Source of the DNA: Pseudoclavibacter sp. AY1F1
GTDB lineage: Bacteria; Actinomycetota; Actinomycetes; Actinomycetales; Microbacteriaceae
DNA: 64,000 nt
Assembly (NCBI RefSeq): GCF_002931075.1
Contig: NZ_PSTQ01000001.1
Coordinates: forward strand, 558,001-622,000
Direction: 5' to 3'
A model generated the notes under the pieces. It did no database searches and was not told where the DNA came from. It saw only the letters and a list, made by a program, of their open reading frames with translations. A program made the position numbers and the translations under genes. The stretch's first letter is position 1, and every line of letters starts with the position of its first letter. Below, piece after piece: positions 6,004-29,465 of this stretch.

Positions 6004-6005
6004 TC

Positions 6006-10281: not shown

Positions 10282-10324
10282 GAATCAACGCCTCGCCCAT
10301 GCGCCCTAACAGAGAGCCGGACCT

Positions 10325-11242
10325 GTGAACACATCACGACTCGAGGGCCAGTCGGTCGTCGTTACCGGTGCCACGAGCGGCATCGGATTCTTCATCGCCG
10401 AAGGGCTCGCACGCCTCGGCGCGCAGATTATCGTGGCAGCCCGGTCCGCGGAACGGGCGCAGACCGCGATTGCGCTCCTACCAGAACCCGGCCGCCACCG
10501 TCACCTCGAACTCAATCTCTTGGACCTCGCATCCGTTCGCGCGGCCGGATCGCGCGTCGGCGTCGGCCAGCCGGTCCATGGCTTCGTGATGAACGCGGGA
10601 GTCATCGCCGCCCACCCGAGCTACGTTGAAGGGCCCTTCGGGGTGGAGTCCACCGTCGGGGTGAACGTCCTCGCCCACCTCGAGTTCCTGCGGTTGAGCT
10701 TCCCCGCGCTCATGCGCGCTCCTGCGGCGCGGATCGTCAGCACAGGCAGTTTCCTCACGAAGAAGATCCCCTTCGATGCAGAGGATTGGCATGCTCCGGA
10801 CTCCTATCGCCCTCGAGTCGCCTACGCAGCCTCCAAGCATGCTGCAGAGATCTTGGGTTTTGAGCTCGACAGGCATCTCCGCGGGAGCGGTTCTCCGGTC
10901 AGATCGATCGTCAGCCACCCCGGCTCCGCCATCGACGCGTTGACGCCGGATCGGCCACCTCTGCATCAACGACCCACGGTCGTCCGGGCACTCGCCACGT
11001 TCATGGGTCCCGTGTTCTCGAAGGTCGCGCAGGGCAAGGATGTGGCTGCGCAACCAACGATCGCGGCGATGACTGCGCCCGTGGTTCCAGCTGACGCATA
11101 TTTCGGACCGCGCACGGGAGCGACCGGGGCGCCGATCCTCGCAACGCCGGTGCCGACGAGCCTCAGTCCAGAGCTCGGCCGACGAGTCTGGATGCAGGTC
11201 GAAGAGCGTCTCGGGGCCCCGATCATCCCCGAGAGATCATGA
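10325..11242 (+). CDS. SDR family NAD(P)-dependent oxidoreductase
   Basis: A 305-residue short-chain dehydrogenase/reductase. The dinucleotide-binding TGATSGIG lies at about 15-22, the NAG motif follows, and the catalytic pair appears as YAASK with the upstream serine in STGSF. The length and C-terminal extension (PTSLSPELGRRVWMQVEERL) resemble the retinol dehydrogenase-like group. The substrate is unknown. The stop codon overlaps the start of the esterase gene by four bases (ATGA), so both are translationally coupled and probably act together. Confidence 0.9.
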   Translation: MNTSRLEGQSVVVTGATSGIGFFIAEGLARLGAQIIVAARSAERAQTAIALLPEPGRHRHLELNLLDLASVRAAGSRVGVGQPVHGFVMNAGVIAAHPSYVEGPFGVESTVGVNVLAHLEFLRLSFPALMRAPAARIVSTGSFLTKKIPFDAEDWHAPDSYRPRVAYAASKHAAEILGFELDRHLRGSGSPVRSIVSHPGSAIDALTPDRPPLHQRPTVVRALATFMGPVFSKVAQGKDVAAQPTIAAMTAPVVPADAYFGPRTGATGAPILATPVPTSLSPELGRRVWMQVEERLGAPIIPERS

Positions 11243-13041: not shown

Positions 13042-13062
13042 CCGTGCTGCACGCGGAACCCG

Positions 13063-14907: not shown

Positions 14908-14963
14908 GCTCTCATCGCCGTTCGCCCGGAATGGCATCCACGCACGGTCAACGCCCTGCCTGC

Positions 14964-16151
14964 TCACGTCGCGGCGAGGGCCGCCGTCGGCGACTGTCGC
15001 GCGGCGCGGATCGAGGGGGCGAGTCCGGCGACCGCGCCTGTCGCAAGCGCCGCTGTCATGCCTGCCACGATCGTCTCCACCGGTACGACCAGCGGCCACC
15101 CCTGCAAGACGCTCCATGCTGCGGTGCCGAGCAGTCCGAGCGGCACTCCGGATGCGCCGCCCAGCGCGCAGAGGAGGATCGCCTCCACGAGGAACTGGGC
15201 CCGGATCTGCCCGCGGTGCGCGCCGAGCGCGCGTCGCAGGCCGATCTCCCGGCGACGCTCGAGCACGGAGACGAACATCGTGTTCGCGATGCCAATGCCG
15301 CCGATCACGAGCGCGACCGCGGCGAGCGCGAGGAACAGCCCATCGAAGTTGGAACGGGCGGCGTCTTTCGCGGCGAGGACGGCCGAGGGCTGACTCACCT
15401 GCACGAGCCCGCTCGCCCCCGGGGAGAGGGTCGCGGCGACGACCGGACGCAGTGCCTCTATCGACGCCTCGTCTCCGGTGACGTAGGCGACCGTCGGTGC
15501 GCCATCGAAGCCGAGCCAGCGCTGCGCCGCAGCATCGTCGACGAGGACCGCTGACTGCAGGTCACCGGAGAGCGGCGTCGCGGAGAGCACTCCGATGACG
15601 GTGAACGCGACGCCGCCGACGTCGATCGTGACGGGACGGTCGGGGAGCTGGGACAGGCCGAGCCGCTCAGCCGCGTCCATGCCGAGCACCGCTGTGGGCA
15701 GGTCGCTCTCTGCCAGCCAGAGACCGGAGGTCACCTCCGCCCTGAGCACCGCGCGGAGGTCACCGCGAACGGCGAGCGTCGTCAGCCCAGTCTCCGGGTA
15801 CTCGCGGAGCTCGTTGCTGCGAATGGGGGCGTGGACATTGCCGACCGTCGCGGCATCGGTCACGGCCCCGATGCGCTGCAGCATGCCGAGCGCCTCGGCC
15901 GGAAGCGGGACGGGGTCTCCGTCGGCACCTGCACGTGGGTCGGCGCGCAGCAGGTCCGCGCCGAGCGCGGTGAGCTGTTCGTCGAGCGCGGCCTGCGAGG
16001 ATGCCGGCACCGCGGTGACGGTCACCAGCGTGGCGATGCCGATGGCGATGCCGATGGTGGAGAGCACGGCGCGCAGCGGCCGAGTGCGAAGCCCGACCGT
16101 GCCCACCTCGAGCAGGTCTCGGAGGCCGAGACGTCTGTGGCGCTCACGCAT
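14964..16151 (-). CDS. ABC transporter permease, MacB/FtsX type
   Basis: A 395-residue permease with one N-terminal membrane helix (AVLSTIGIAIGIATLVTVTA), a large extracytoplasmic domain of about 220 residues (MacB_PCD), and three C-terminal helices beginning FLALAAVALVIGGIGIANTM. The motif ERRREIGLRRALGAHRGQI after that helix is characteristic of the FtsX core. It overlaps the ATPase gene by eight bases. Together with the ATPase and the adaptor it forms a mechanotransmission-type ABC system rather than a classic importer. The exported compound or signal is unknown. Confidence 0.92.
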   Translation of the reverse strand: MRERHRRLGLRDLLEVGTVGLRTRPLRAVLSTIGIAIGIATLVTVTAVPASSQAALDEQLTALGADLLRADPRAGADGDPVPLPAEALGMLQRIGAVTDAATVGNVHAPIRSNELREYPETGLTTLAVRGDLRAVLRAEVTSGLWLAESDLPTAVLGMDAAERLGLSQLPDRPVTIDVGGVAFTVIGVLSATPLSGDLQSAVLVDDAAAQRWLGFDGAPTVAYVTGDEASIEALRPVVAATLSPGASGLVQVSQPSAVLAAKDAARSNFDGLFLALAAVALVIGGIGIANTMFVSVLERRREIGLRRALGAHRGQIRAQFLVEAILLCALGGASGVPLGLLGTAAWSVLQGWPLVVPVETIVAGMTAALATGAVAGLAPSIRAARQSPTAALAAT

Positions 16152-16866
16152 GCTGCACCGCCTCGGTGCCGGCCTCGGTGGTGGTGTCGATGTTCGTGTC
16201 GGCGACGATGCGGCCGTCTCTCAGCTCGACCCGCCGCGGCAGTCGCGTGGCGAGCTCGACGTCGTGGGTGATGACGACGACGGTGGTGCCCTCGTCGTGC
16301 AGTCGCTCCAGCAGGCTGAGCACGCGTTCGCCGTTCGCGGTGTCGAGGGCGCCGGTCGGTTCGTCGGCGAGGACGACGAGCGGATCGGTCACGATCGCCC
16401 TGGCGATGGCGACTCGCTGCCGTTCGCCGCCGGAGAGCTGCTGCGCCGCGTGCCCCATGCGGTGCTCGAGCCCCACGCGCTCGAGCGCCGCGCGGGTGAG
16501 ATCGCGGCGCGCTCGCCTCGGAACACCGCTGTAGAGGAGCGCCATCATGACGTTCTGCTCGGCGGTCACTCCGTCGCTCAGGTGGAAGCCCTGGAAGACG
16601 AACCCGATCGTGCTGCCCCGCAGGGTGGAGAGCCCGCGATCCGTGAGATTTCGGGTGTCGGTCCCGCCGATGCGAACCGCACCGCTCGTGGGGCGGTCGA
16701 GCGTGCCGAGCACGTTGAGCAGCGTCGACTTGCCGGCGCCGGAGCGTCCGACGATCGCGGTGAGCTCACCGGGACCGATCTGCAGCGAGACTTCGTCGAG
16801 GGCGACGACTCCGCCGGGGTGGATGCGGCTGACGCGCTCGAGCTCGAGTGCGGGCGTCGTCGTCAT
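16144..16866 (-). CDS. ABC transporter ATP-binding protein, MacB/LolD type
   Basis: A 240-residue ATPase with Walker A GRSGAGKST (40-48), signature LSGGERQRVAIARAI, Walker B VVLADEPTGALD and switch HDVELA. The family is that of the LolD/MacB/FtsE ATPases that power FtsX-type permeases. The gene overlaps both its neighbours by a few bases (16863-16866 with the adaptor, 16144-16151 with the permease), so the three are translated as a unit. Confidence 0.95.
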   Translation of the reverse strand: MTTTPALELERVSRIHPGGVVALDEVSLQIGPGELTAIVGRSGAGKSTLLNVLGTLDRPTSGAVRIGGTDTRNLTDRGLSTLRGSTIGFVFQGFHLSDGVTAEQNVMMALLYSGVPRRARRDLTRAALERVGLEHRMGHAAQQLSGGERQRVAIARAIVTDPLVVLADEPTGALDTANGERVLSLLERLHDEGTTVVVITHDVELATRLPRRVELRDGRIVADTNIDTTTEAGTEAVQHA

Positions 16867-17906
16867 CGTGCCGACACCACCGTCATGCCGGCGTCGATTC
16901 CTTCGCCGCTGACCTCGACGCGGTCGTCCGCGATCAGACCGATCTCGACGCCGTGCAGTCCGCCCCGGTCGTCCTGCAGGGCGTACCCGCCTTCGGCGAG
17001 GGCGACAAGCGAGGCCACGGGGACGATCAGCACGTCCTGCACCGATCTGGTGACGATGCGGACGGTCACGGCGGCAGCGTCGACGCCGTCGAGGGTGGCC
17101 TGATCGTCGATCGCGACGATCGCGTCGACCTTCGCCTCGGCCCCCTCACCGGTCGTGTTCACGCTGTCGATGGAACCGTCGACGACGCGTCCATCCGGTA
17201 GCTCGATCGTGGCTCGTGCACCGGCGCCGATCAGCCCTGCGTCCTGGGCAGGGACGGACGCCCCGACGACCCGCGTCGTGAGCGTCACCGTGTAGGGCTG
17301 ACCAGCGGCAGTGTCGCCGAGGCGGGCACTCACGGTGGCGACGCGACTCGACGCGCTCAGGACGACCACGTCGGCAGGTCCGAGGATGCCGGTGCGCTCG
17401 ACGCCGAGCGACTCCTGCCAGTCCCGCACCGCCTGCTTGAAGTGCTTCCCCGTCTCGAACGTGTCGATGTCGCTGGGATACAGGTAGCCGAGGTCCATCA
17501 GGTTCGACGCGACCATGCTGACATCGGCCCCCTCCATCTTTGGCTTGTCGATCGCGCGGTAGAGCGGAACCTCGCCGATGAGCACGGGCACCGGGCGCTC
17601 GTTCGCGCGCAGGGCCACCGACCCCCGATCGAGGACTTCGCCGACCTCGGGCAGCCAGGTGATGATGCCGTCCGCCTTTGTCGTCACGGAGGCCGCGGCG
17701 CCGAAGCCGACGGAACCGTCGAGGCGAGCGGTCTGAACGAGCTCGCCACGCTCGACGACCGCGGTGGCCGGCGCGGCTGTCTCCTCCACGGGGCCTGCGT
17801 CATTCGCGGGCCGGAGCACCAGGGCGGCACTGCCGGCGCCCGCGGCGAGCGCGAAGCAGACCGCGAGCGTGACAATGAGCGCGGTGCGCCCGCGACCCCG
17901 GGTCAC
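16863..17906 (-). CDS. Membrane fusion (adaptor) protein with peptidoglycan-binding domain
   Basis: A 347-residue protein anchored by one N-terminal helix (TALIVTLAVCFALAAGAGS). A lipoyl-like region (VVERGELVQTARLDGSVGF) is interrupted by a peptidoglycan-binding type 1 segment (MVASNLMDLGYLYPSD, then FKQAVRDWQESLGVERTG) and followed by beta-barrel parts resembling HlyD/MacA adaptors. In Gram-positives such proteins link the ABC permease to the cell wall. It is in the operon lipoprotein-adaptor-ATPase-permease-kinase and overlaps both neighbours by four bases. Confidence 0.88.
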   Translation of the reverse strand: MTRGRGRTALIVTLAVCFALAAGAGSAALVLRPANDAGPVEETAAPATAVVERGELVQTARLDGSVGFGAAASVTTKADGIITWLPEVGEVLDRGSVALRANERPVPVLIGEVPLYRAIDKPKMEGADVSMVASNLMDLGYLYPSDIDTFETGKHFKQAVRDWQESLGVERTGILGPADVVVLSASSRVATVSARLGDTAAGQPYTVTLTTRVVGASVPAQDAGLIGAGARATIELPDGRVVDGSIDSVNTTGEGAEAKVDAIVAIDDQATLDGVDAAAVTVRIVTRSVQDVLIVPVASLVALAEGGYALQDDRGGLHGVEIGLIADDRVEVSGEGIDAGMTVVSAR

Positions 17907-18520
17907 GCAGTGCTCCCACCCGATTCGGAGGCCACGCAGGCGTCCACGTACTGCATGCCAAGCGAGATCGAGGTGGCATCGTTCGTCTCACCGCCGAAGG
18001 CGATATTGATCCGGCCGAACTGGTCCGCCTCTGCGATCTCGACCTCGCGGACACCGCGATCATGCAGGCAGTCCACCACGCCCTGCGCGAACCGCAGCGC
18101 ATCCGGGTTCTGCACGTCGAGCTCCCACGGAGGCAGCGGCGCCACGCGCAGGCAGAGAGCCTCGGCCTCGGCGGCCTTCGCCGGATCCCCACCGTCGCTA
18201 CCGGTGACCGAGCCGTCGCCGCCCACGGGGGCGTCCTGTGGTGCATCGGTGTGGTCCTCGAGGCAGCGATCCCGAGCCTTCCAGGCGTCCGTTTGTTCTT
18301 CGTCCGACATGTCGAGACGCAGGCGCACCGGCTCGCCGTACTCCGCGATGAGAGCATCGGCTGCCTCGGTCGGGGCCGGAGCGGCCGTTTCCAACGTCGC
18401 GATGCCGGTGCCACCCTCAGGCCTCTGATCGGCTGAGGGTGCGGAGCATGCGGCGAGCACTGCGACGAGCGCGATGGCGCCTGCTGCGGCGGTCAGGGAT
18501 CGGTGGGTGATGCGGAGCAT
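17903..18520 (-). CDS. Lipoprotein, first gene of the ABC/two-component operon
   Basis: A 205-residue lipoprotein: the signal ends in the lipobox LAAC with Cys 25. The mature part is acidic, with RLRLDMSDEEQTDAWKARDR and cysteines in DRCLEDH, ALCLRVAP, DCLHDRG and DACVAS, suggesting disulfides. AGGAGG precedes ATG by four bases, which fixes the start over the longer ORF. Proteins of this kind often accompany MacB-like systems in actinobacteria as extracytoplasmic sensors or chaperones; the exact role is inferred from context only. Confidence 0.8.
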   Translation of the reverse strand: MLRITHRSLTAAAGAIALVAVLAACSAPSADQRPEGGTGIATLETAAPAPTEAADALIAEYGEPVRLRLDMSDEEQTDAWKARDRCLEDHTDAPQDAPVGGDGSVTGSDGGDPAKAAEAEALCLRVAPLPPWELDVQNPDALRFAQGVVDCLHDRGVREVEIAEADQFGRINIAFGGETNDATSISLGMQYVDACVASESGGSTA

Positions 18521-18624
18521 GTGTCCTCCTCGTGTCGTGAGCGGCCGTGACCCACGCTCGTTCTCGGATGTGAGGGACTTGTGAGCGTCCAGTGCAGAGC
18601 CAGACCGCATGGCGGACGCGTGCT

Positions 18625-18630
18625 TAGGGT
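18625..18630 (+). promoter_or_regulatory. Leaderless -10 box of the response regulator
   Basis: TAGGGT at 18625-18630 stands six bases before GTG at 18637, so the mRNA probably begins at the start codon. There is no ribosome binding site. Confidence 0.5.
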
Positions 18631-18636
18631 TGGGTC

Positions 18637-19320
18637 GTGACCAGAGTCTTGATCGTCGAGGACGATGCGCTGCAGTCCGAGCTCGTCCGCCGATACCTCG
18701 AACGCGAGGGGCACGACGTGACGGTGCTGGCCGACGGCGCCGAAGCGCTCTCCGAGGTGCGCCGTTCTGCGCCCGACCTGCTTGTCCTCGACGTGATGCT
18801 CCCCGGGGCCGACGGCCTCACCATCTGCCGCACGCTGCGCGAGGAGCAGTTCGAGCTCCCGATACTCCTCCTCACCGCACGCTCCACCGAGAACGATCTG
18901 CTCCTCGGGCTCGAGCTCGGCGCCGATGACTACCTCGCCAAGCCGTACAGCCCGCGCGAGCTCGTCGCGCGAGTCCGCGCGCTTCTGCGGCGAGTGCACC
19001 GCACGGCGCCGGCCACGAGGGTCGTCACCGTCGGCGACCTTGAGATCGACCCGGAGCGGCGTCGTGCCACCCTCTCCGATCGGCTCCTCGACCTCACCCG
19101 CGCCGAGTTCGACCTGCTCGAGGAGTTCGCCCTGCATCCCGGCATCGTCCTCAGCCGCGCCCGCCTGCTCGACCGCCTGCACGGCACAGATCGCTGGATC
19201 GGAGGCCGCACGATCGACACCCACGTGAAGAACCTCCGGGCCAAGATCGAGGCCGATCCTCAGACGCCGTCGAGGCTCCTCACCGTCTACGGGGTCGGGT
19301 ACACGCTCCACGAGGGCTGA
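18637..19320 (+). CDS. OmpR/PhoB family response regulator
   Basis: A 227-residue regulator. The receiver domain has VLIVEDD at 4-10, the phospho-acceptor Asp 52 in LVLDVMLPG and Lys 102 in AKPYSPREL. The C-terminal winged helix shows VTVGDLEIDPERR, then LTRAEFDLLEEFALHPGIV and RTIDTHVKNLRAKIE, typical of OmpR/PhoB. It is transcribed away from the lipoprotein-adaptor-ABC-kinase operon and is the likely partner of that kinase, controlling the operon from the shared 116-base intergenic region. Confidence 0.95.
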   Translation: MTRVLIVEDDALQSELVRRYLEREGHDVTVLADGAEALSEVRRSAPDLLVLDVMLPGADGLTICRTLREEQFELPILLLTARSTENDLLLGLELGADDYLAKPYSPRELVARVRALLRRVHRTAPATRVVTVGDLEIDPERRRATLSDRLLDLTRAEFDLLEEFALHPGIVLSRARLLDRLHGTDRWIGGRTIDTHVKNLRAKIEADPQTPSRLLTVYGVGYTLHEG

Positions 19321-19374
19321 GCCAGGCACGCATCACGACCACACCCAACCGCGCTTCAACCAAAGGAACACTGC

Positions 19375-19569
19375 ATGCGACTTCTCGGAACGATTCTTCT
19401 TGCCATCGGATTCATCGCGCTCGCCTCGGCGGTCCTCATCACCGACCCAACCGCACTCGACGCGAACATCGGTGCCGGGATCCTCCAGATGGCGGGGTTC
19501 GTCGCCGGAGGCGCAGGTCTCGCCGTTCTCCTCGTCACTCTGCTCATTCCGAAGCGCACATCTCGCTGA
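19375..19569 (+). CDS. Small two-helix membrane protein
   Basis: A 64-residue protein with two hydrophobic helices (LLGTILLAIGFIALASAVLI and MAGFVAGGAGLAVLLVTLLI) and a short basic C-terminus (PKRTSR). AAAGGA lies seven bases before ATG. It follows the response regulator by 54 bases on the same strand and may be co-transcribed. No family recognised. Confidence 0.65.
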   Translation: MRLLGTILLAIGFIALASAVLITDPTALDANIGAGILQMAGFVAGGAGLAVLLVTLLIPKRTSR

Positions 19570-20277
19570 GGACTTCGCGGACGGAGACCGCCGTCGGTCT
19601 AGGTGAGCGAGCCGAAGGCCAGCTCTCCTTCGAACAAGACCGCCAACGGGCTCACCTGGCCGAGCGGGTCGAGCTCCACGTCCAAAGTCCCTGTCGAGGA
19701 TAACGAGGTTCGCGTCCATTTCGACTTCGAGAGAATCGACTCTGTCATCGATCCTGAGCTGCTGCGCCGCCTCGAAGGTGTGACCCTGCGGAATCGCCGT
19801 GACCCGAAGCGCGAATCGAGGCCCCGGGTAGCGTTCGGGGTCGGGAGGTAGTTCTGGGTCGACCCGCATCGCGGCCACCTGCATGCCGAAGAACAGGTTT
19901 CCTCGATGGAGCTCGAGGTTCCTCAGGACGTCACTCGCGACGCCGGACGGGTCGCTGGATGCTGGCTTCGAGCAGCCATGGCAGACTCGCAGACCCGAAA
20001 CTGCACGTGTAGCAGCGCTGGCCCGGCGATCAAGGCCGCCGGCTTCCATCACGGCCGAGACTGGTTTACATTGCTGAGAGGCCCCGCCGAACATCAAGTA
20101 GGTAATCGGCTCATCTGGGTCGAGGTGGTAAGAGCGGTTCAACTGTTGACGCTTGTCCCGCATCTTGCCCGCGGGCGCGGGTCGGTCCACCTCGCTGGCG
20201 GATACAGATCGTTCAGGACGGCACCGGTATCCGCTGCAGGCGACCACAGAGAATCGATCCACGGATCGGGGGAGCGG
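19570..20277. other. Gap with a possible eroded minus-strand gene
   Basis: About 700 bases without a gene I can call. On the minus strand a frame ending at the TAG complementary to 19601-19603 reads TGTLDVELDPLGQVSPLAVL, then FEGELAFGSLT before the stop, with strong codon bias at its end, but upstream a TGA interrupts it and there is no plausible start. A neighbouring minus frame stays open over the same stretch. This pattern suggests a decaying gene whose identity I do not recognise. Confidence 0.3.
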
Positions 20278-21081
20278 ATGGCGGATGTGTTTGAAGGTGA
20301 CCGGGTGATTCTCCTCCACGGCTGGCCGGGGCTCCCGTCGGACTACGACGAGGTGCGAGACGCCCTGCTGCCCGCGACAACGATCGTGCCAGAGCTCCGC
20401 GGATTCGGCACGGCGTTCGACGGGTACCTCCCACTGGGCGAGGCCACAGCAGAAGCGCACGCCCACCGGATCCTCGATACGCTCGAGGATTCGGTGGTCG
20501 GCGGCCGCACCATCATCGCCGGGTACGACATTGGCAGCCGCATCGCTCAGGCGGCCCTGCGCCTCGCCCCGTCGCGGTTCGACGCCGCCGTGCTCACCCC
20601 TGCGTATCCCGGCATCGGCGACCGCGCGACGGCGCCGTCCCTGGCACCAACGTTCTGGTACCAGCACTTCCACCGCGAACCGATCGCCGCAGGGCTCATC
20701 GACGGCAAACCCGGCGCCGTGGCCACCTACCTCGACTACCTCTGGCACGCCTGGAGCGGAGCCACCGCACCCCAGCGTCACCCGCACCGCGAGGAACTCA
20801 TCGCGGCCTACTCGCGGCCGGGAGCGTTCGCCGCGAGCATTCAGTGGTATCTCGCGAACCGCGGGTATGCGGGCGACCCGTCGCCGATCAAGACCCCCAC
20901 CGTCATGCTGTGGCCGACGGAGGACCCCCTCTTCCCTACTGAGTGGGCCGACCGGCTCGACGATCACTTCACTCGCGCCACCCTCCAATTCGTCGCCGGC
21001 AGCGGACACCTGCTCCCGATCGAAGCGCCAGCCGCGCTCGCCAGCGCCATCCGTTCCTTCCACGTCTCCAGGGACAGCTGA
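20278..21081 (+). CDS. Alpha/beta hydrolase, epoxide hydrolase-like
   Basis: A 267-residue hydrolase with HGWPG (14-18, oxyanion part), a nucleophile elbow AGYDIGS with Asp at 84, the acid in WPTEDPLFP and the catalytic His in GSGHLLPIE. The Asp nucleophile places it near epoxide hydrolases and haloalkane dehalogenases. The usual first beta strand is short: ATG 20278 leaves only about ten residues before HGWPG, so the true start may lie upstream in the same open frame. GGGGGAG precedes this ATG closely. It is followed by a TetR gene on the same strand. Confidence 0.75.
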   Translation: MADVFEGDRVILLHGWPGLPSDYDEVRDALLPATTIVPELRGFGTAFDGYLPLGEATAEAHAHRILDTLEDSVVGGRTIIAGYDIGSRIAQAALRLAPSRFDAAVLTPAYPGIGDRATAPSLAPTFWYQHFHREPIAAGLIDGKPGAVATYLDYLWHAWSGATAPQRHPHREELIAAYSRPGAFAASIQWYLANRGYAGDPSPIKTPTVMLWPTEDPLFPTEWADRLDDHFTRATLQFVAGSGHLLPIEAPAALASAIRSFHVSRDS

Positions 21082-21151
21082 TCTCACCAGCGCCCTCATC
21101 CGGCCACTCGCGCGAATGAGGGTGCCGCTCACGCGACGCTAGGCTGATCGG

Positions 21152-21841
21152 ATGCCAGCCAGGGGGACATATGCACGGGGCGCGAAGCGGCGGGAAGAGA
21201 TTCTCGGCGTCGCGCTGGCGACGCTCGCGGAACGCGGGTACCACGCAACCAGCCTGCGCGGCATCGCCCGAACACTGGACATCGATCCAGCACACATCGG
21301 CTACTACTTCGGATCACGCGAGGGGTTGCTTCGCGAGGTGATCGAGCGGTGGGACGCGGACCTGCATGAGCGCACCCAAGGTCTCGACCAGTTCGAGGTC
21401 CTTCTCGACGCGCTTCGGTTCAACGCCGGTGTCCGAGGAATCGTGCACCTGTACCTCTCTTTCGCCGCAGAAGCCGCGCAGGAGACGCACTCGGCGCACG
21501 CGTACTTCATCACGCGCTTCGAGGGGCACGCCGCTCGAACAGCCGAGACCATCCTCGAAGGGCAGAAGCAGGGTCTCGTGCGAGCGACGGTCGATGCGGG
21601 TGATGCGGCAAGGCGCATCATCGCGATAGCCGACGGCATCCAGATGCAGTGGCTGCTCGACCCCTCGCTCGACACCCCGGCGCTGCTCGGGGCGACCATC
21701 GACGACCTCTTCGTCACGGGGACTCGGACCCGCGTCCGCCCCGCCTCGAGCTCCCCCCCAGTAGCCTCGGTCGACTCGAGCGTCAACGGAGGAGGCGCGT
21801 ATCTCCTGCGCCTCCCCCGCCGATGCTGGAGTTCGGACTAG
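21152..21841 (+). CDS. TetR family transcriptional regulator
   Basis: A TetR-type regulator. The N-terminal helix-turn-helix reads KRREEILGVALATLAERGYH, then ATSLRGIARTLDIDPAHIGY and YFGSREGLL. The ligand-binding region is helical (IVHLYLSFAAEAAQETHSAH). As given the protein has 229 residues with an odd tail (NGGGAYLLRLPRRCWSSD) that is encoded by a terminator-like hairpin. A C7 tract at 21753-21759 shortly before would, with one C fewer, give an immediate TAG and a normal length of about 203 residues. It probably regulates the hydrolase upstream. Confidence 0.88.
   Translation: MPARGTYARGAKRREEILGVALATLAERGYHATSLRGIARTLDIDPAHIGYYFGSREGLLREVIERWDADLHERTQGLDQFEVLLDALRFNAGVRGIVHLYLSFAAEAAQETHSAHAYFITRFEGHAARTAETILEGQKQGLVRATVDAGDAARRIIAIADGIQMQWLLDPSLDTPALLGATIDDLFVTGTRTRVRPASSSPPVASVDSSVNGGGAYLLRLPRRCWSSD
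21753..21759 (+). repeat. C7 homopolymer near the 3' end of the TetR gene
   Basis: Seven consecutive C bases. In the given frame they read TCC CCC CCA GTA; with six C bases the frame becomes TCC CCC CAG TAG, a stop. Confidence 0.9.
21791..21815 (+). terminator. Hairpin overlapping the 3' end of the TetR frame
   Basis: GGAGGCGC (21791-21798) pairs perfectly with GCGCCTCC (21808-21815). It lies inside the annotated TetR reading frame, which supports an earlier stop for that gene. Confidence 0.55.
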
Positions 21842-22175
21842 GCACGAACAGCCAAGACCTGTGCGGTCCGGTTCGCTGACCCTCCTGCGGGATGTGACCC
21901 CACGACAGACTTTACACACTGTTGAAAGTTGTGTGCGAACAATCATGGTTTGGCTCCTCCGGAATCGGCTTTTGCGTCTCCCCACCCGATCGACCAACGC
22001 GAGCTCGCGCCCGAAGACGACGGGAACTAGACCTTGGGCTTGATCAGACACGACTCGGTCTAGGCGCCCCGCGACACCAGGGCCTGCAGCTTGGGAAGGA
22101 AATTATGCCGAGCGGTCGCCGGATCGGGCCCCCGGTCAGTTGGACGCTCTCGAATGAGTGCACGGGGCCGCTGGG
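21842..22175. other. Intergenic region without recognised features
   Basis: About 330 bases between the TetR gene and the small coupled ORF ending at 22176. I see no gene, RNA or repeat here. Confidence 0.6.
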
Positions 22176-22379
22176 TCACGAATGGCTTCGAGGGGATGAT
22201 TTCTGAGGGACCGTTGGGCGGAGCGTCCGGTCGATGCGGACACACCCGTCCGTGGTCGTCTGCGGGCAGACGCGCACGGCGACGTACTTCGGCGCCGACG
22301 CTGGCAGGGCAGCAACCACGAAGGAACCAGAGGAGCTTTGACCCGCGGCTTCACTCGTGCGGGTGTCGCCCGCGGTCAT
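22176..22379 (-). CDS. Small hypothetical protein coupled to the exonuclease gene
   Basis: A 67-residue ORF starting MTAGDTRTSEAAGQSSSG, then SFVVAALPASAPKYVAVRVC and PQTTTDGCVRIDRTLRPTVP. Its ATG overlaps the stop codon of the exonuclease gene in the arrangement ATGA (22376-22379), the classic mark of translational coupling, so I regard it as real. The N-terminal third is Ser/Thr-rich; two cysteines flank a short beta-like part. No signal peptide and no family recognised. Confidence 0.55.
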   Translation of the reverse strand: MTAGDTRTSEAAGQSSSGSFVVAALPASAPKYVAVRVCPQTTTDGCVRIDRTLRPTVPQKSSPRSHS

Positions 22380-22963
22380 GAGCGGTCCACCGCTGCGAGC
22401 ACCGCCTGGACGGTGTCGCCAATTCTCAGGCCGGTCGCCAGGCACGCGTCGACGTCGTCCATCGTTCGGTGTCCGGTCGTGGGTGCCACCCGGTCGATGT
22501 CGAGCCCGGAGTAGCGGGCGAGGAACAGCTCGACGCTGGTGAGGTCCACGCTGCGGTGGTGGAGCTTCGCGAAGGTCAGCGGGAGGTGCTCGCGCAGGAA
22601 GTTGCGATCGAGAGTGATCGAGTTGCCGACGAGCACCAGCGGAACGCCGTCTGCGTGCGACTCGAGGTAGGCGGCGATGCGCGCGTCCACGTCTGCGACC
22701 GTCAGACTGGCGCGGTCGACGTCGGCGACGAGTCCGCTCTTGGTGTGCATGTCCACGACGAAGTCGTTCATGCGGCCACGCCACGGGAAGACGGGGAAGA
22801 TCGAATCCGTGGGGCTGCGCTGGGCGACAACGAGCGATATGCCGTCGTCGACGGGGGAGAGGCCGTTCGTGACGACGCGGGCGGCGACCTCGAGGACGAT
22901 GCCAGTCTGCTCGCCGAGACCGGTGGTCTCCAGATCGATGGTCTCCAGATCGATGCAGACCAT
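22376..22963 (-). CDS. Oligoribonuclease-like DEDDh 3'-5' exonuclease
   Basis: A 195-residue exonuclease with the DEDDh motifs: ExoI IDLETTGLG near the N-terminus, ExoII GNSITLDRNFLREHLP and ExoIII HRTMDD. The spacing, HTKSGL and the HLHYR-like KLHHRSVDL part resemble oligoribonuclease (Orn), which removes nucleotides from short RNAs, but sequence identity looks distant. The first motif contains an exact 15-bp tandem duplication, so the catalytic D-L-E appears twice (CIDLETIDLETTGLG). ATG 22963 is chosen because the motif begins right after it. The CCCCGCATAG element lies 38 bases upstream and there is no clear ribosome site. Confidence 0.75.
   Translation of the reverse strand: MVCIDLETIDLETTGLGEQTGIVLEVAARVVTNGLSPVDDGISLVVAQRSPTDSIFPVFPWRGRMNDFVVDMHTKSGLVADVDRASLTVADVDARIAAYLESHADGVPLVLVGNSITLDRNFLREHLPLTFAKLHHRSVDLTSVELFLARYSGLDIDRVAPTTGHRTMDDVDACLATGLRIGDTVQAVLAAVDRS
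22925..22954 (-). repeat. 15-bp perfect tandem duplication in the exonuclease catalytic motif
   Basis: GGTCTCCAGATCGAT occurs at 22925-22939 and again at 22940-22954 (plus strand). It duplicates five codons, IDLET, of the ExoI motif. Confidence 0.95.
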
Positions 22964-23000
22964 GAGGGACGGGTGCGGTTCGGGAGTGCTCGTGTTCCGT

Positions 23001-23010
23001 CTATGCGGGG
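23001..23010 (-). promoter_or_regulatory. CCCCGCATAG element promoter for the exonuclease
   Basis: Exact decamer on the minus strand, 38 bases before ATG at 22963. It is 18 kb from the other five copies, and still inside the proposed island. Confidence 0.55.
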
Positions 23011-23046
23011 GACGTGGACTTTTTGATAGTTCTCGCGGGACTAGGA

Positions 23047-23080
23047 GGGCCCGGCCCGGCTTGTGTGCCTGGCCGGGCCC
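23047..23080. terminator. Hairpin terminator after the glycine-rich gene at 23095
   Basis: GGGCCCGGCC (23047-23056) pairs with GGCCGGGCCC (23071-23080) around a 14-base loop, 14 bases after the stop codon of the minus-strand glycine-rich gene. Confidence 0.8.
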
Positions 23081-23094
23081 CACCGATGTGTGCC

Positions 23095-24195
23095 TTAGGC
23101 GGGCCAGCTGATGGTGACGAAGCCGCTCCCGCCGCTACTCGGAGGTGAGAAAGTCCCGCCGTTGGATGCGACGCCCTGTGTGCTGGTGGCGATGAGGGTC
23201 GGATTCGAGACAACGAAGTTCGATCCCGCACCGCCGCCGCTGCCTGCGGCTGAGGCATTCGAGTTGGCGGTGTCCCAGATGCGTGCGGCACTTCCACCGC
23301 CCCCGCCCGCGTAACCTCCGCCACCACCGCCAGAGGAGGATCCAGTTGGTGCCGAGTTGGTGCCACTGACCGAGGCGCCGGTGCCGCCATTGCCGCCGGC
23401 GTTTGCGCCTGTGCCGGAGTTTCCTCCGGCCGTGCCGAAGGTTCTGGCGATGTTGGTGTTGTTGGCGGTGCCTGCGACCCCTGCGGCGCCTCCCGTAGCT
23501 CCTGTCGCGGAGGCGCCACCGGTCTGTTGGACGTTGAAGCCGTTGAAGTCTGCTCGCGAGCCACCGCCAGTCGCTGTTCCGGGGCTTGCCCCGTTCCCGC
23601 CGTATATTCCAGTGATGTTCGCGTTGCTCGCGTTGGCGTCTGCGGACCCGCCACCGCCTCCGCCACCCGCCACTGCGACGAGGGTGGTGCCTAGGCGAAG
23701 TGCGCTGCCGGCGCCACCTGCACCGCCTGTTGACGAGATGCTTGCAGGCGTCGCGGGGTCTTGGGAGTTACCTCCGTTGCCGTAGCCCTGTCCGCCAGCT
23801 GCTGCTATGTCGGGTGAGGATGGGCCGGATCGTCCGCCGCTGGCGGCGATGACGTTGAAAGTTTGGCCGGGTGTCACGTTGAGCGTGACGGTAACGAGAG
23901 CGCCGGCGGCTCCTCGGCCTTGTTGGGTCATCTGGCCGTTGAAGCTGCGGCCCGCTCCGCCGCCGCCACCGGCGATTGACACCGTGATCCTCGAAATGCA
24001 CGGGGGCACGATCCAAGTACCGGTCACGGCAGCAGTGCCTGCAGTTCCTCCGTTGAAGGTGATCGTGCCCGTCTCTCCACAGGAGGCGGCTGCAAACGGG
24101 GCTACAGCTCCGGTCGCGATGATGGGTACCGACCAGGCTCCCGCAGTGAGGAGAGTCCGGCGCGCGGGATTGGATTCTGAGGGAGTGGTGGTCAT
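23095..24195 (-). CDS. Exported glycine-rich repeat protein
   Basis: A 366-residue protein with the signal RRTLLTAGAWSVPIIATGAV, then APFAAAS, followed by CGETG and a beta-rich start, then a long Gly/Ala/Ser/Asn-rich body with runs such as GGGGGGGSA and GGGGGGYAGGGGG. The segment SALRLGTTLVAVAGGGG matches the corresponding part of the protein at 2494 (SAILIGTTPYVVAGGAGG), so the two are paralogues of the same architecture. GAGG lies four bases before ATG 24195, which fixes the start. Surface location is inferred from the signal; function unknown. Confidence 0.75.
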   Translation of the reverse strand: MTTTPSESNPARRTLLTAGAWSVPIIATGAVAPFAAASCGETGTITFNGGTAGTAAVTGTWIVPPCISRITVSIAGGGGGAGRSFNGQMTQQGRGAAGALVTVTLNVTPGQTFNVIAASGGRSGPSSPDIAAAGGQGYGNGGNSQDPATPASISSTGGAGGAGSALRLGTTLVAVAGGGGGGGSADANASNANITGIYGGNGASPGTATGGGSRADFNGFNVQQTGGASATGATGGAAGVAGTANNTNIARTFGTAGGNSGTGANAGGNGGTGASVSGTNSAPTGSSSGGGGGGYAGGGGGSAARIWDTANSNASAAGSGGGAGSNFVVSNPTLIATSTQGVASNGGTFSPPSSGGSGFVTISWPA

Positions 24196-24489
24196 GGGTC
24201 CTCTTCGATGTGGCGAGCCGGTTCGCGTTCCCCGGCTTGAACGGTCAAAACGTGCTTCGGGCTTTGGGCCGCTCAGCGATCCACGCCCCCTGGAGACGTG
24301 CAAGCCAGTGCGGCATATGCTCAGCCGGTCGGACACACTCTTGGGACGGTGGGGTCGTTCGCCAGATTAGAAGCCCGCTAGGGCTCGACTGGATCGTCAA
24401 GACAAACTGACGCGAACGCAGTACCTGCCGGCACGTAGGTGCGGGCTTACAAGTACGACGGCAGATGAGTTGTCGGAACGCGACGCTGT

Positions 24490-25509
24490 TCAGGATTGTG
24501 GCTCGTGCCCGGATTTCTGCCCATCGGTGTCGTCGATCAGCTTGTCGATGTCGACGTCGACGGTGACGGCGACATCGACGGGACTTGGAACGCGGAGGGT
24601 TTGCGCCGCGTGCTCGCCAGACTCCAGCGCGCGCTGCTCGGCTAGGGCGCGTTGGAGTGATCTCACGGAGCCGAAGCCAGAGAGCTTGGCGACTCTCGCG
24701 AGTTCTGCTCCTGTTGGACGAGCCTCGCGGAGATGGGCATTGGCCAAGTTCACCCTGGTTCGACGCAGGAGCTGGCCGGGAGTGGTTCCGGTGCCGTCGA
24801 AGACAGCGTGCAGGCGAGACTTTGACATTACGAGGTCAGTCGCCAGGTGTCTGATTGTGAAGGAGGGGTCTGTGGCGTTCGAATCGATCACAGCCATGGC
24901 GCGCCCGATTTCCTCGGACTGGGCGTAGGACGTGAAGGAGTACCGGTCGCGGGCAGTTGAGTCCAGCGAAGCGGCGAGGAGGTTCTCGAGCCCCCGCCGC
25001 CAGGCAGGGAATGCTGCCGAGGCCTCGGTCATAGGAGAGGCCAGCGAAGCATGGGCCGCGCTGATGAAGATGGAGGCGATTGTGGAAGCGACGCTGACAG
25101 GTGTGCCGTTTCTGAGCAAGTCCGGGTTCTGAACCGTCAGCCGGGTCTTGAGCGTCGCGAGCACCACTCGTGACGCGGGCTCGTGGGTGATCAGCGAGAA
25201 CAGATCTGCGTTGCCGTGGACAACGTGGTCTCCAGGGCGAAGGGTGTGCGTGCCGGCCTCATTCACCACTTGGTGGTCGCCAGACACACCGACGACGACG
25301 ATCGCCCGGACGTTCGGTTCGGTGTCCGAACCGATGATCTCGATCTCGGCCGGGGTGTGCCAGATGCGGCCAATGGCGAAGGTATCCGTCCAGATGAGAT
25401 CTGCGTTCAGGCGGAATGTCCCGCGGTAGGAGCGCACGTGCCAACCGCGCTTGCCGAGCCAGTCCACGGCATCCGGGCCTGTGAGGTGTACGTCGCGGTC
25501 GTCCGGCAC
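24490..25509 (-). CDS. AraC family transcriptional regulator
   Basis: A regulator of about 339 residues. The N-terminal part matches the AraC-type ligand-binding domain (VDWLGKRGWHVRSYRGTFRL, then GDHVVHGNADLFSLITHEPA). The C-terminal double helix-turn-helix reads FTIRHLATDLVMSKSRLHAV, then LLRRTRVNLANAHLREARPT and VAKLSGFGSVRSLQRALAEQ. A 40-residue Asp/Val-rich tail follows and is unusual. GTG 25509 suits the domain start; the longer ORF from TTG 25647 has no ribosome site. It may control the exported-protein genes on either side. Confidence 0.85.
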   Translation of the reverse strand: MPDDRDVHLTGPDAVDWLGKRGWHVRSYRGTFRLNADLIWTDTFAIGRIWHTPAEIEIIGSDTEPNVRAIVVVGVSGDHQVVNEAGTHTLRPGDHVVHGNADLFSLITHEPASRVVLATLKTRLTVQNPDLLRNGTPVSVASTIASIFISAAHASLASPMTEASAAFPAWRRGLENLLAASLDSTARDRYSFTSYAQSEEIGRAMAVIDSNATDPSFTIRHLATDLVMSKSRLHAVFDGTGTTPGQLLRRTRVNLANAHLREARPTGAELARVAKLSGFGSVRSLQRALAEQRALESGEHAAQTLRVPSPVDVAVTVDVDIDKLIDDTDGQKSGHEPQS

Positions 25510-25922
25510 TCGGTCTTCTTTCGCTGGGGGGAGCGTCCTGGAGGGGACCAGGGAACTGTTGGGCACCGGGCGAACCCTCGGCAACTCCAGCGACGAAAAA
25601 TCCTGTCCCGGTGTCAGCGAATCCGCGACTCGACGCGAATGTCTCAATTCGCGGGAACAGACCTCGCCTATATCCCATGAGTGGGGATCTCATCGGGACC
25701 TAGCCGTGTTCCCCTCAGTGATGCTATGCGCCTCGGGCCATCCACGTGCGTGTTGGGGTGGTTGAGGACCCCACCTTGGGCGACAGTGCCAAATCGTCCT
25801 CGAGTTCGACACGAAAGTCCACGATCTGTGTTTCGTTTCACTGCGGTGCACGGCTGAGAGAGAGCATCAAGCGCGAACGCAGCAGCGGGTTGCGCTTCCC
25901 TAATTCCACGGAGTTTCACCGG
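25510..25922. other. Divergent promoter region between AraC and an exported protein
   Basis: About 410 bases. If the AraC gene starts at TTG 25647 the gap is shorter. I see no repeat or confident promoter box. Confidence 0.4.
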
Positions 25923-26654
25923 ATGGCCGACCTGGATCCGAACGAAGGAGATCGCGCGCGCAGTATCGTCATCCACAGCACCGCGTGGTCAGTTCCGATT
26001 TTCAGTGCCGCTGTCGCGACTCCGACTGTTGCTGCATCGGGTGGGTGTGCGAGCGGAACCATCGTGTGGAGCGACCCCGGATTTGTGCGAGATTCCAGTG
26101 TGTCAGGACACGGAACCGTGACCGCTATCGGACCGAGCGGCAGTACACCGATCGACTATCAGATCACCTCCACCATCCAGGCCGATGGCGCCCTCAAACC
26201 AGGTTCCGAGAATCTCAGTGCGAGTGGTCAGGGACTCAAACTCGACTCGACACCACGGGAGACCCTCGCGCCGGACGTCTTCGATCCTCAGTACAGCAGC
26301 GACACACGCGTTGTCTTTGACGCTCCCATTCGAAATGTCCGATTTCGCATCGGTGACGTCAAGACAATCGGAACCCCCAAGGCAATCGTTGCCAAGCAGT
26401 GGGTTGGTATCCGCAACATCGTTGGGCGTCAAACCGTCTCAGCAGCCGCTGGAATGGGGATGACCTACGAGACCGCTCCAGACATCTACTCCGCCCATGT
26501 CTTCGGAGGAGTGAACCCCGAGGACCCGGACCGCGAAGTTCGATTTGTCCTGGGCGGCCCCATCACCGAATTCAGCGTCTTGTTCAAGCGCCAAGGTGTG
26601 GCTGCAGGCGGCGGCATCCACCTCACGAACTTGAACTTCGACCTCGACTACTGA
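25923..26654 (+). CDS. Exported protein with AAWSVP-type signal, unknown function
   Basis: A 243-residue protein. The N-terminus (RARSIVIHSTAWSVPIFSAA, then VATPTVAASGGC) resembles the signals of the genes at 2494, 23095 and 26704 but has RAR instead of RR. The mature part is predicted beta-rich (TVTAIGPSGSTPIDYQITST, then TRVVFDAPIRNVRFRIGDV) with a C-terminal EFSVLFKRQGVAAGGGIHLT, like a single jelly-roll or beta-sandwich domain. CGGAG lies nine bases before ATG. It is followed 49 bases later by a related exported protein, so the two form an operon. Confidence 0.7.
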   Translation: MADLDPNEGDRARSIVIHSTAWSVPIFSAAVATPTVAASGGCASGTIVWSDPGFVRDSSVSGHGTVTAIGPSGSTPIDYQITSTIQADGALKPGSENLSASGQGLKLDSTPRETLAPDVFDPQYSSDTRVVFDAPIRNVRFRIGDVKTIGTPKAIVAKQWVGIRNIVGRQTVSAAAGMGMTYETAPDIYSAHVFGGVNPEDPDREVRFVLGGPITEFSVLFKRQGVAAGGGIHLTNLNFDLDY

Positions 26655-26703
26655 CCAAGACCAACACCGCCGTCGCACAGACCATTCAAGAGAAACCAGG
26701 AAC

Positions 26704-27525
26704 ATGAACAATCCCCAGCCCGCCCACGTCTCCCGACGCACGATCGTGACCGCTGCAGCGTGGACCATCCCAGTCATCAGCGTTGCGACAGCTGCTCCTC
26801 TCGCGGCAGCTTCGACCCTTCTGTGCACGAGCACCGCCACCGCGTCGGCAGTCGCCGTCGCCGGCAATCCCTCGGAATGGACAGCGACCGTCCCGGGAAG
26901 CACCACGACCTACACCGTCCGTGCTGTGTCAACACTCGGCCCGGGAACGACCACCACACAGAACGGCATCTCCCACAACCTCACGGATGACGGAGCAGGA
27001 TGGAACGGGGAAGCCGCTGCAGACGGCAGCGACGACTACGAGTTCTCCGGCTTCGGCGCACCTGGATCGCTCGTGCTTAATCAACGCGTCGATGGCACGA
27101 CCGCACCGGCCTCGACCTTGGCCCCGACTCAGACGCTCACATTCGAATTCGTCGACAGCACGGGGGCAGCGTTCACGCCGAAGAACTTTGAGCTGACCGT
27201 CTTCGACATCTCTTCAGTTGCCAACTCGGGCTGGCGAGCCACCTACTGGGACGCCGTGGGCTTCAGCGTCACGCCAGAATCGATCACCCCGAGCTCAGTA
27301 TCGGCTGGAGTCGGCACAGGCACGCTCGCGGATCCATTCCACCGCGAAGGCGACAACGAGTTCACGCCACTGGACTCCGATTTCCTCGACGTGTTCCGCT
27401 TCGCTACCTTCCCAACTGGCTCGACGATGCTCTACACGCAGAACGGAGGGGCGCAGGGGTGGCAATTCATCTCCATCGCCGGCCTCAAGTTTGACGTCGA
27501 AGTTCCCTGCCCGCCTGCCAACTAA
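26704..27525 (+). CDS. Exported beta-rich protein with twin-arginine-like signal
   Basis: A 273-residue protein with the signal SRRTIVTAAAWTIPVISVAT, then AAPLAAAS. The mature part is Thr/Ser/Gly-rich and predicted beta-sandwich (WTATVPGSTTTYTVRAVST, then LTFEFVDSTGAAFTPKNFEL and TVFDISSVANSGW), with one cysteine near each end. No enzyme motif is visible. It follows the related gene at 25923 and is the last gene before the att-like scar; a terminator lies at 27706-27731. Confidence 0.7.
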   Translation: MNNPQPAHVSRRTIVTAAAWTIPVISVATAAPLAAASTLLCTSTATASAVAVAGNPSEWTATVPGSTTTYTVRAVSTLGPGTTTTQNGISHNLTDDGAGWNGEAAADGSDDYEFSGFGAPGSLVLNQRVDGTTAPASTLAPTQTLTFEFVDSTGAAFTPKNFELTVFDISSVANSGWRATYWDAVGFSVTPESITPSSVSAGVGTGTLADPFHREGDNEFTPLDSDFLDVFRFATFPTGSTMLYTQNGGAQGWQFISIAGLKFDVEVPCPPAN

Positions 27526-27705
27526 ACAGAAGACGCTCGCCATTCCAGGAGCCGAGGTGTCCTGCTTCACCGTCACTTCATCCCGAAATCGGGTCGTCAG
27601 TGCAGTCGCCCCGTGAGCGAGTCGTACGCTGTCCAAGCCGCTTCCCGGTCAGCCCCGGCGCGTTGGGGAACCTGCATGCGGGCCCCGTTGGACAGCGGCA
27701 CCAGG

Positions 27706-27731
27706 CCCCGCCGGAATCACTTCCGGCGGGG
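27706..27731 (+). terminator. Intrinsic terminator
   Basis: An 11-bp perfect stem (27706-27716 with 27721-27731), a TCAC loop and a T-rich tail (TCTTCCATTTT). It ends transcription from the exported-protein operon. Confidence 0.85.
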
Positions 27732-27867
27732 TCTTCCATTTTCGTCCGGATCGCATCCAATGCACGGCGATGCAACGGGGCAAAGTGGTTTTTGGACGTC
27801 CGGCCCCGGGGCGCCGGTTGAATGCGACACGCCGTGCGGACACCCTCACAACCGAACCCTCTTTTGA

Positions 27868-27903
27868 CCCCAAAAACCCCCGAAAACCCCCCGTTTTGAA
27901 CCC
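27868..27903 (-). other. G-quadruplex-capable tract (minus strand)
   Basis: On the minus strand four G-runs occur as GGG-N8-GGGGGG-N5-GGGGG-N5-GGGG. The tract lies 107 bases from the tRNA-Asn scar, within a 480-base gene-free region (27526-28009) that otherwise shows only the terminator at 27706. Confidence 0.4.
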
Positions 27904-28009
27904 GCAATCAGTCCGTGCGAACCCGTAGAGTTTGACTCAGGCGGGTCGAACAGGCCCGGGAAATCAAGGAAGTCGGGGCATGCCGGTCATGCTTAGGCAG
28001 GTGGCTCAG

Positions 28010-28048
28010 AATCGGCAGGTTGATGGTTCGAGTCCATCTCAGGGAGCA
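28010..28048 (+). other. tRNA-Asn 3' half, att-like scar
   Basis: From the bases just 3' of the anticodon the sequence follows a tRNA-Asn: AATCGGC (anticodon-stem 3' strand), a five-base variable loop AGGTT, T-arm GATGG-TTCGAGT-CCATC, acceptor strand TCAGGGA, discriminator G (as in tRNA-Asn), then CA. The matching 5' half (a TCCCTGA acceptor strand, D-arm and GTT anticodon) is absent upstream. Integrases that use tRNA genes leave exactly such a displaced 3' end, with the intact tRNA at the other end of the element, here expected to the left of the window. Confidence 0.65.
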
Positions 28049-28052
28049 GTAA

Positions 28053-28081
28053 GAACCCCAGCGCCTCAGGCGCTGGGGTTC
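28053..28081 (+). terminator. Terminator of the tRNA-Asn locus
   Basis: GAACCCCAGCG (28053-28063) pairs perfectly with CGCTGGGGTTC (28071-28081), followed by TCTCGTTT, five bases after the tRNA fragment. Its position supports the reading of the fragment as the original 3' end of a tRNA gene. Confidence 0.85.
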
Positions 28082-28208
28082 TCTCGTTTCGGCGACCGTC
28101 TCAAGGATCGCGACGGTAACACGGGGCTCCGGCGCGGGTTGCCGACTGAGCGCCGGACGTGGTCCTCTTGAGGGGCCAACTCCGAGGACACACAAGGGCG
28201 TGCAGTCG

Positions 28209-29465
28209 ATGACGATGAACGATTCCGAACAGCGTCGGACGAACTGGGCGCGGTCATTGACCTACTCCGCTCGAGAGGTGGCGAGGCCGCGCTCGATGGA
28301 CGAGTTGTCGAGCATTGTCGCGAGCTCCGACCGGGTGCACGCACTCGGCACACGACACTCCTTCAGCGACGTTGCGGACACGGCCGGCGTGCTTGTGGAC
28401 CTCGGCGGGCTTCCGGTCAAGCTTGACATCGATGCGTCGACAGGAACTGCGGCGGTGAACGCTGCGGCAACGTACGGGAAAGTCGCGCCCGCGCTCGACC
28501 TGGCGGGCTTCGCGCTCCACAACGAGGGTTCGTTGCCGCATATCTCTGTCGCAGGGGCCACCGCCACAGGGACGCACGGGTCAGGGTCGACCCTCGGTTC
28601 CCTAAGCACAGTCGTACGGGCATTGGAGGTTCTCGGTCCCGACGGATCGGTGCGTACGTTCAACTCTGATTCAGGAAGATTTCCCGGCGCTGTCATGCAC
28701 CTGGGACTGCTCGGGGTCGTAACGCGGGTCACGTTGGAACTCGAGCCGAGCTACAGAATGCGACAGGACGCGTACGGCCCGATGCCGTGGAATACGTATC
28801 TCGACAAACTGGAAGAAATCCACGCCGCCGGCTACTCGGTGAGTGCTTTTACGAGTTTCGGTGAAACCGTGCACGAGATCCTCGTGAAATCACGAATTCC
28901 TGACGGCGCCCATGACATCGAAATCGTGAACGACCTGTTGGGAGCGCCACGGCTTTCGGGAGATCCGGGTGGCACCTCGGTCACCGCGCGAGACGGATCG
29001 GTCGGGCCCTGGTGGGATCGCCTCCCGCACTTTCCAATCGCATCAACGCCCAGTGTCGGCTCGGAACTCCAGAGCGAGCACTTCGTGCCTCTCCGGCATG
29101 CGGGATCAGCCCTCGAGGCGGTCCGCGCTCACGCTCGGCGCCTCCTGCCCCTCCTGCACGTCAGCGAGCTCAGGACAATGGCAGGTGATGACCTCTGGCT
29201 GAGCTCGACGCAGGGTGAGGACGTGCTCTGCATCGCCTTCACCTGGAAGAAAGTCCCAGAAGCCGTGGCGGAATTGCTCGTCGATATCGAGAGGAGCCTC
29301 ACGCCGTTCAGCGCCCGCCCGCACTGGGGCAAACTCACCTCTCTCGATCGCGACTCGATCAGCGACCTCTATCCGCGCCTCCCGGAGTTCCGCCGTCTCG
29401 TGACGGAGCTCGATCCAGACCGAAAATTTGCGTCGCCGTTCAGCGAACGTCTACTTGGTATCTGA
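28209..29465 (+). CDS. FAD-binding alditol oxidase-like flavoprotein
   Basis: A 418-residue member of the VAO/alditol oxidase family. GTRHSFSDVADT contains the His (about residue 50) that binds FAD covalently in alditol oxidases, and LHNEGSLPHISVAGATATG followed by THGSG is the FAD-diphosphate region. The C-terminal PHWGK and the end DPDRKFASPFSERLLG are also shared with AldO and xylitol oxidase. It likely oxidises a polyol with oxygen, forming an aldose and H2O2. ATG 28209 suits AAGGG ten bases upstream; GTG 28200 and ATG 28215 are alternatives. Confidence 0.85.
   Translation: MTMNDSEQRRTNWARSLTYSAREVARPRSMDELSSIVASSDRVHALGTRHSFSDVADTAGVLVDLGGLPVKLDIDASTGTAAVNAAATYGKVAPALDLAGFALHNEGSLPHISVAGATATGTHGSGSTLGSLSTVVRALEVLGPDGSVRTFNSDSGRFPGAVMHLGLLGVVTRVTLELEPSYRMRQDAYGPMPWNTYLDKLEEIHAAGYSVSAFTSFGETVHEILVKSRIPDGAHDIEIVNDLLGAPRLSGDPGGTSVTARDGSVGPWWDRLPHFPIASTPSVGSELQSEHFVPLRHAGSALEAVRAHARRLLPLLHVSELRTMAGDDLWLSSTQGEDVLCIAFTWKKVPEAVAELLVDIERSLTPFSARPHWGKLTSLDRDSISDLYPRLPEFRRLVTELDPDRKFASPFSERLLGI

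Follow-up and report, generated by a model that had tools for sequence, protein, structure and literature searches.

How does the 3′ half of a tRNA-Asn gene come to lie without its 5′ half in a bacterial chromosome, and what does it border? The question is raised by a 64,000-nucleotide stretch of the 4.1-Mb genome of Pseudoclavibacter sp. AY1F1 (the window, G000:C1:558001-622000, where G000 is the source genome). A first-pass annotation of the window had read the fragment as an integration scar, closing one element of at least 28 kb with an integrase beyond the left edge. The scar stands, on an exact repeat of the tRNA 3′ end, an intact gene and an empty site in a relative (G005). We regard the fragment as very probably the attR of a 37.3-kb island that was inserted into tRNA-Asn(GTT) in the manner of tyrosine integrases, its integrase having since been lost or acting in trans (Table 1).

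Table 1. Coordinates of the island, its ends and its neighbours; plain numbers are window positions.
Feature	Position	Strand	Remark
attR core, displaced tRNA-Asn(GTT) 3′ end	28013..28047	+	35-nt direct repeat
Partner repeat, closing the intact tRNA-Asn gene	G000:C1:548652-548686	+	left of window
Island-side arm of attR, imperfectly like tRNA anticodon arm	27997..28012	+	BLAST
Native tRNA-Asn terminator hairpin, stayed with fragment	28052..28082	+	folding, G005 homology
FAD/ALO-type oxidase, first core gene right of island	28200..29465	+	adjoins tRNA-Asn in G005
Whole island	G000:C1:548687-586012		37.3 kb
Right three quarters of island	1..28012		missing from G005 empty site
GmrSD-C/HNH endonuclease-like gene	1094..2158	-	relatives: G005 C1:504927-505850; G002 (split, next to tRNA-Asn)
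D12-class DNA adenine methyltransferase-like gene	3585..4544	+	PADLOC PD-Lambda-5_B, type II MTase models
Metabolic/transport cargo	5396..21841		11243-19940 94.6% identical to G005:C20:143566-152244
Right-end module	22216..28012		89% identical to G005:C1:514260-520075

The fragment is an exact copy of positions 40-74 of tRNA-Asn(GTT), that is, of its 3′ end. The intact gene (G000:C1:548613-548686; anticodon at position 34 according to ARAGORN) lies on the same strand and the same contig, 9.3 kb left of the window edge, and the two copies of the repeat are separated by 37,361 bp. Thus, as had been foreseen, there is left of the window a complete tRNA-Asn(GTT) on the plus strand whose last bases are those of the fragment, and the shared core does have a second copy, its length being 35 nt and not the 39 first given. 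The 5′ half is indeed missing, and ARAGORN calls no complete tRNA at 28010-28081; yet BLAST similarity runs on imperfectly to 27997 (88% over tRNA positions 24-74), so that the island-side arm weakly resembles an anticodon arm. With up to three mismatches allowed, the window contains the 35-mer once, and none of 100 dinucleotide-preserving shuffles contains it. Good matches to the fragment in the entire source genome are confined to the intact gene and the window copy, the next best being 83% over 30 nt (E 0.037). A tDNA with a downstream 3′ tDNA fragment in the same orientation is therefore present on one replicon, both parts being on contig C1.

Is the DNA between the two copies an insertion? 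Ten Pseudoclavibacter genomes, the source genome included, were compared, and a clean empty site was found in G005 only. There a dehydrogenase gene (C1:330534-331538) is followed by tRNA-Asn (331640-331713), its native terminator and the ALO-type oxidase gene (331810-333069), tRNA and oxidase being 96 bp apart. When the two flanks of the source genome are joined in silico at the 35-nt core, they align to this site over the tRNA and the terminator, the remaining intergenic DNA being less similar. The native context of the tRNA is thus kept in a relative in which the intervening DNA is absent, and hence window positions 1-28012 and the 9.3 kb to their left make up a 37.3-kb insertion. The comparison with an empty site, which had been proposed as a check, so places everything in the window left of the fragment within one insertion: positions 1-28000 are not collinear core DNA in G005, and the core is repeated. 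In two further genomes (G006 and G008), tRNA and oxidase are 2.1 and 0.9 kb apart, with different terminators and no second repeat. G001, G002, G003 and G009, in which no oxidase gene stands beside tRNA-Asn in the stretches compared, and the fragmentary G007 were left unscored.

The terminators tell the two ends apart. Directly behind the fragment, where a strong terminator had been claimed, folding gives a 14-bp hairpin with a minimum free energy of -30.5 kcal/mol (z -6.0; none of 200 shuffles equally good), followed by an interrupted T-tract. A simple terminator scan of 27600-28200 is weaker support: besides this site it reports one at 27703-27734, two in all, where shuffles average 0.8 (sd 1.0). 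The terminator behind the fragment has a homologue in G005, immediately after the intact tRNA-Asn of the empty site. The hairpin now behind the intact tRNA-Asn of the source genome differs from that native terminator and, on sequence comparison, is taken to be a replacement brought by the island. The locus is thus a clean example in which the original terminator of a tRNA can be distinguished from an imported one. In the mechanism that we favor, the circular island would have carried an attP consisting of the tRNA 3′ half and a terminator of its own. A crossover inside the shared 35 nt would then have produced, on the left, an intact tRNA-Asn followed by the island terminator and, on the right, the original 3′ half followed by the native one; the integrase gene would later have been lost, unless the enzyme was supplied in trans.

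Alternatively, the fragment might resemble a tRNA by chance or be the decayed relic of a duplicated tRNA gene, with 1-28012 being ordinary core DNA. Metabolic genes are indeed present, and the GC content of the island (0.670, against 0.662 and 0.660 in the flanks) is so core-like that, on base composition alone, the island would have gone unnoticed. However, the exactness of the 35-nt copy, never reproduced by shuffling, the native terminator attached to it and the empty site in G005 make this reading hardly credible.

What does the island carry? From the left, a transposase remnant and two ORFs without an accepted match are followed by genes for a 775-aa protein and an HSP90-family protein, then by the HNH (GmrSD-C) gene, the D12 methyltransferase gene, metabolic, regulatory and transporter cargo and the right-end module. 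The cargo encodes a CGNR regulator, alpha/beta hydrolases, a MerR regulator, a nitronate monooxygenase, a MarR regulator, an SDR protein, a carboxylesterase, a histidine kinase with a response regulator, a MacB/FtsX-type transporter and a TetR regulator. The right-end module encodes an RNase T-type exonuclease, a 413-aa protein, an AraC-type regulator, a 302-aa protein and a 273-aa protein with a Tat-like signal (by eye). A scan of named genomes with an alignment of the last gives one relative, from Pseudoclavibacter sp. AY1H1 (NZ_PSXX01000001.1), which is G005, and tblastn finds no match to it in the plasmid collection. Pfam detected no phage structural, packaging or lysis genes and no relaxase or type IV secretion families among 38 island ORF translations (small ORFs being partly covered), and none of 10 island proteins matched PHROGs. 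In these scans the island shows neither the phage genes expected of a prophage nor the relaxase and type IV secretion genes expected of an ICE or CIME. CIMEs, cis-mobilizable elements, derive from ICEs; the island is like them in having attL and attR while integrase and conjugation genes were not found, and unlike them in that neither an ICE ancestor nor a relaxase is seen.

Several observations concern single genes. The gene for the 775-aa protein overlaps the HSP90-family gene (NCBIfam PRK14083; L004:13389-17506). The former protein has no match in Pfam, PADLOC, PHROGs or NCBIfam, and is matched in six of 299 genomes of the family, including the source genome, whose second copy is 47% identical; the pair is 86% identical in G005 at the DNA level. 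Second copies of the island segments 7489-8445, 9754-11233 and 19599-19940, 82-90% identical, are found at G000:C29:74521-77394. In G002 (C1:1208680-1216560, L071), the relative of the HNH gene stands ~0.3 kb behind tRNA-Asn and is split by ~7 kb of other DNA.

Is tRNA-Asn a recurrent target? In G004, an identical 35-nt fragment (C1:950044-950078) lies in the same orientation 38.8 kb from the intact tRNA-Asn, which is likewise followed by a replacement terminator of the element's own. The interior is a prophage, nine of 10 scanned proteins matching PHROGs (integrase, endolysin, tape measure, portal and terminase among them), and the start of its integrase ORF is 115 bp away from the fragment; the prophage thus has the integrase and phage structural genes that were not found in the island. 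Except for ends and flanks, blastn finds nothing in common between island and prophage, and in tblastn of 38 proteins of the source genome against the G004 stretch, five flank proteins match but none of the 33 island proteins. Since an unrelated prophage is bounded by the same fragment, the site has been reused. To the right of this prophage the oxidase gene is broken (G004:C1:939165-949554, L065), with matches in several frames and ~9 kb of additional DNA interrupting it.

In a family sample of 299 genomes, seemingly without G004 and G005, a query of window positions 27600-28049 matched 61, the source genome included; outside its own copy, only the tRNA part (398-450) was hit among the matches listed, with no second copy of the arm. 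In G044, from another genus of the same family, 38.4 kb separate an intact tRNA-Asn from a fragment, and an integrase frame lies 146 bp from the latter. In G066 the distance between fragment and integrase frame is 642 bp, the intact tRNA-Asn being absent from the matches of the family search at the threshold used. The integrases of G004, G044 and G066 are 42-56% identical to one another. In all four elements the fragment starts at tRNA positions 36-40 (by eye), which suggests that the crossover occurs near the anticodon side of the repeat block. A study by Williams in 2002 is said to have dealt with tRNA sublocations. In G026 (C1:354826-355108, L106), two tRNA-Asn genes stand in tandem with differing sequences behind them.

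Which enzyme moved the island? The integrase that had been placed beyond the left edge of the window was not found: PF00589, PF00239, Pfam and tblastn searches detect none in the 37.3 kb. A six-frame search with PF00589 matches seven places in the source genome, all outside the island; Pfam finds no integrase family among the 38 translated island ORFs, which include overlapping alternatives; and tblastn with three integrases against the island gives a best E of 0.53. A serine recombinase was dropped as the mover, PF00239 having no match in the island. A frameshifted integrase at C1:731445-732411, picked up by tblastn, was missed by the PF00589 search, and a strongly decayed copy in the island could therefore escape detection. 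In the three other tRNA-Asn elements the integrase frame lies at the fragment end. The left end of the island bears a remnant of a Mutator/IS256-type transposase, the N-terminal part of which is in another frame (by eye); it is a plausible trace, although not proof, of the events that would have removed the integrase.

Did the island ever have an integrase? It may have been a cis-mobilizable, satellite-like element from the start, its att sites being served in trans by the integrase of a tRNA-Asn prophage like that of G004, or of some other element in the same cell. Such a hitch-hiker would have kept a working attL and attR and swapped the terminator each time that a tRNA-Asn phage integrase moved it. 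The two att copies are undamaged and agree in all 35 nt, the very 35 nt that the unrelated G004 prophage uses, and two related integrases are encoded elsewhere in the source genome (C1:26445 and C14:588), 34-40% identical to the tRNA-Asn integrases. There is also a precedent in Klebsiella pneumoniae, where asn-tDNA is described, in the available text, as a hotspot for different islands with direct repeats, of which groups VIII, IX and XII are without an integrase and integrase cross-talk has been proposed (PMC4891358). The likeness extends to the tRNA-Asn hotspot, the direct-repeat bounds and the lack of an integrase in some islands; in contrast, phylum and cargo are different, and four asn-tDNA copies are described there against one full-length match here (PMC4891358). 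However, the two integrases of the source genome adjoin apparent fragments of another tRNA (by eye), so that their own target is probably different, and the decay at the left end fits the loss of a former integrase. We therefore consider an island that always depended on other integrases improbable.

The sequences beside these two integrases (G000:C1:27340-27390, L081; C14:40-90, L115) resemble a tRNA 3′ half with the anticodon CAT (by eye), and ARAGORN calls no tRNA at either. They differ from the tRNA-Met at window positions 45375-45450 (by eye). The integrases themselves are 70% identical.

Was the 37.3 kb moved as a unit? The single element of at least 28 kb claimed by the first-pass annotation is right as to a single insertion, but its interior is, on the alignments, a mosaic of modules common to other loci of the genus. 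Segments of it match G005 at C1:504.9-520.1, C20:96-98, C20:143-165 and C22:124-129 kb with 80 to 95% identity, the larger matches all lying away from the tRNA-Asn of G005. The first of these regions, which contains the 775-aa/HSP90 pair, the HNH gene and the right-end module, adjoins tRNA-Val(CAC) and a different integrase. Mean identity between island and G005 is 90.0% over 22,968 bp in seven pieces of more than 800 bp, an average that omits island pieces of 174, 168 and 32 bp and two C22 pieces; it becomes 89.2% over 25,486 bp with the two C22 pieces (80% and 84%) and 89.1% with the small pieces as well. The core flanks are 81.2% identical over 10,024 bp in four pieces, a 94-bp piece being omitted. 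Shorter matches of ~65-80%, mostly to ABC-transporter and regulator genes, were not counted, as presumed paralogues. The excess of ~89-90% over 81% indicates that pieces of the island were exchanged within the genus after the species split.

The att sites could stem from a previous occupant of another kind, for instance a prophage, the interior having been filled in afterwards by homologous recombination, IS activity or accretion; the 37.3 kb would then never have moved as a unit. The four separate regions of G005 fit this history, as do paralogues of right-end module genes in a tRNA-Val island of the source genome and the fusion of the same right end to a tRNA-Val-type integrase in G005. However, the outermost arm is joined to the right-end module in G005 too, together with 18 nt of the tRNA-Asn core, so that at least the right end looks like a true element end, and no simpler element with common ends was seen at the site in the 10 genus genomes. 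A later-filled interior is thus possible but doubtful, and insertion of the island as a whole remains the reading that we prefer.

The hybrid end in G005 (C1:514260-520220, L076) carries an arm similar to that of attR beside a different integrase, the right end being joined at the T-loop, through the 18 nt of core, to the tRNA-Val-type integrase. Secondary integration at the T-loop was considered as its origin and no left partner was found: an exact 14-mer search of G005 C1:486-546 kb for a tRNA-Val left-end fragment returned only the two tRNA-Val genes themselves. The second island of the source genome (G000:C1:716530-732630, L082) lies at tRNA-Val(CAC), with the intact gene at C1:732554-732628 on the minus strand, a 3′ fragment accompanied by a hairpin-like sequence near C1:716550, the frameshifted integrase mentioned above and the paralogues of right-end genes of the tRNA-Asn island.

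How does the island relate to known systems? According to the available text of the Islander paper, its class of islands is recognized by a tDNA with a downstream 3′ fragment, within length limits of 2-200 kb and with an integrase ORF required (PMC4383910). The present island resembles this class in having an intact tDNA and a same-orientation 3′ fragment that reaches the tDNA end, with 37 kb between them, and differs in that no integrase was found, candidates of this kind being rejected there (PMC4383910). It is apparently an integrase-less addition to a well-described class of tDNA islands, and insertion into a tRNA gene is in itself a common route by which bacteria acquire DNA. In one species the attachment site holds a prophage with its integrase; in another, the same site holds an island in which no integrase could be detected. 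The boundary of the core chromosome is hereby closely fixed: 28 kb of the window and 9.3 kb beyond it are island and not core, and the HSP90-like, HNH, methyltransferase, esterase and transporter genes within them are therefore to be read as exchanged cargo.
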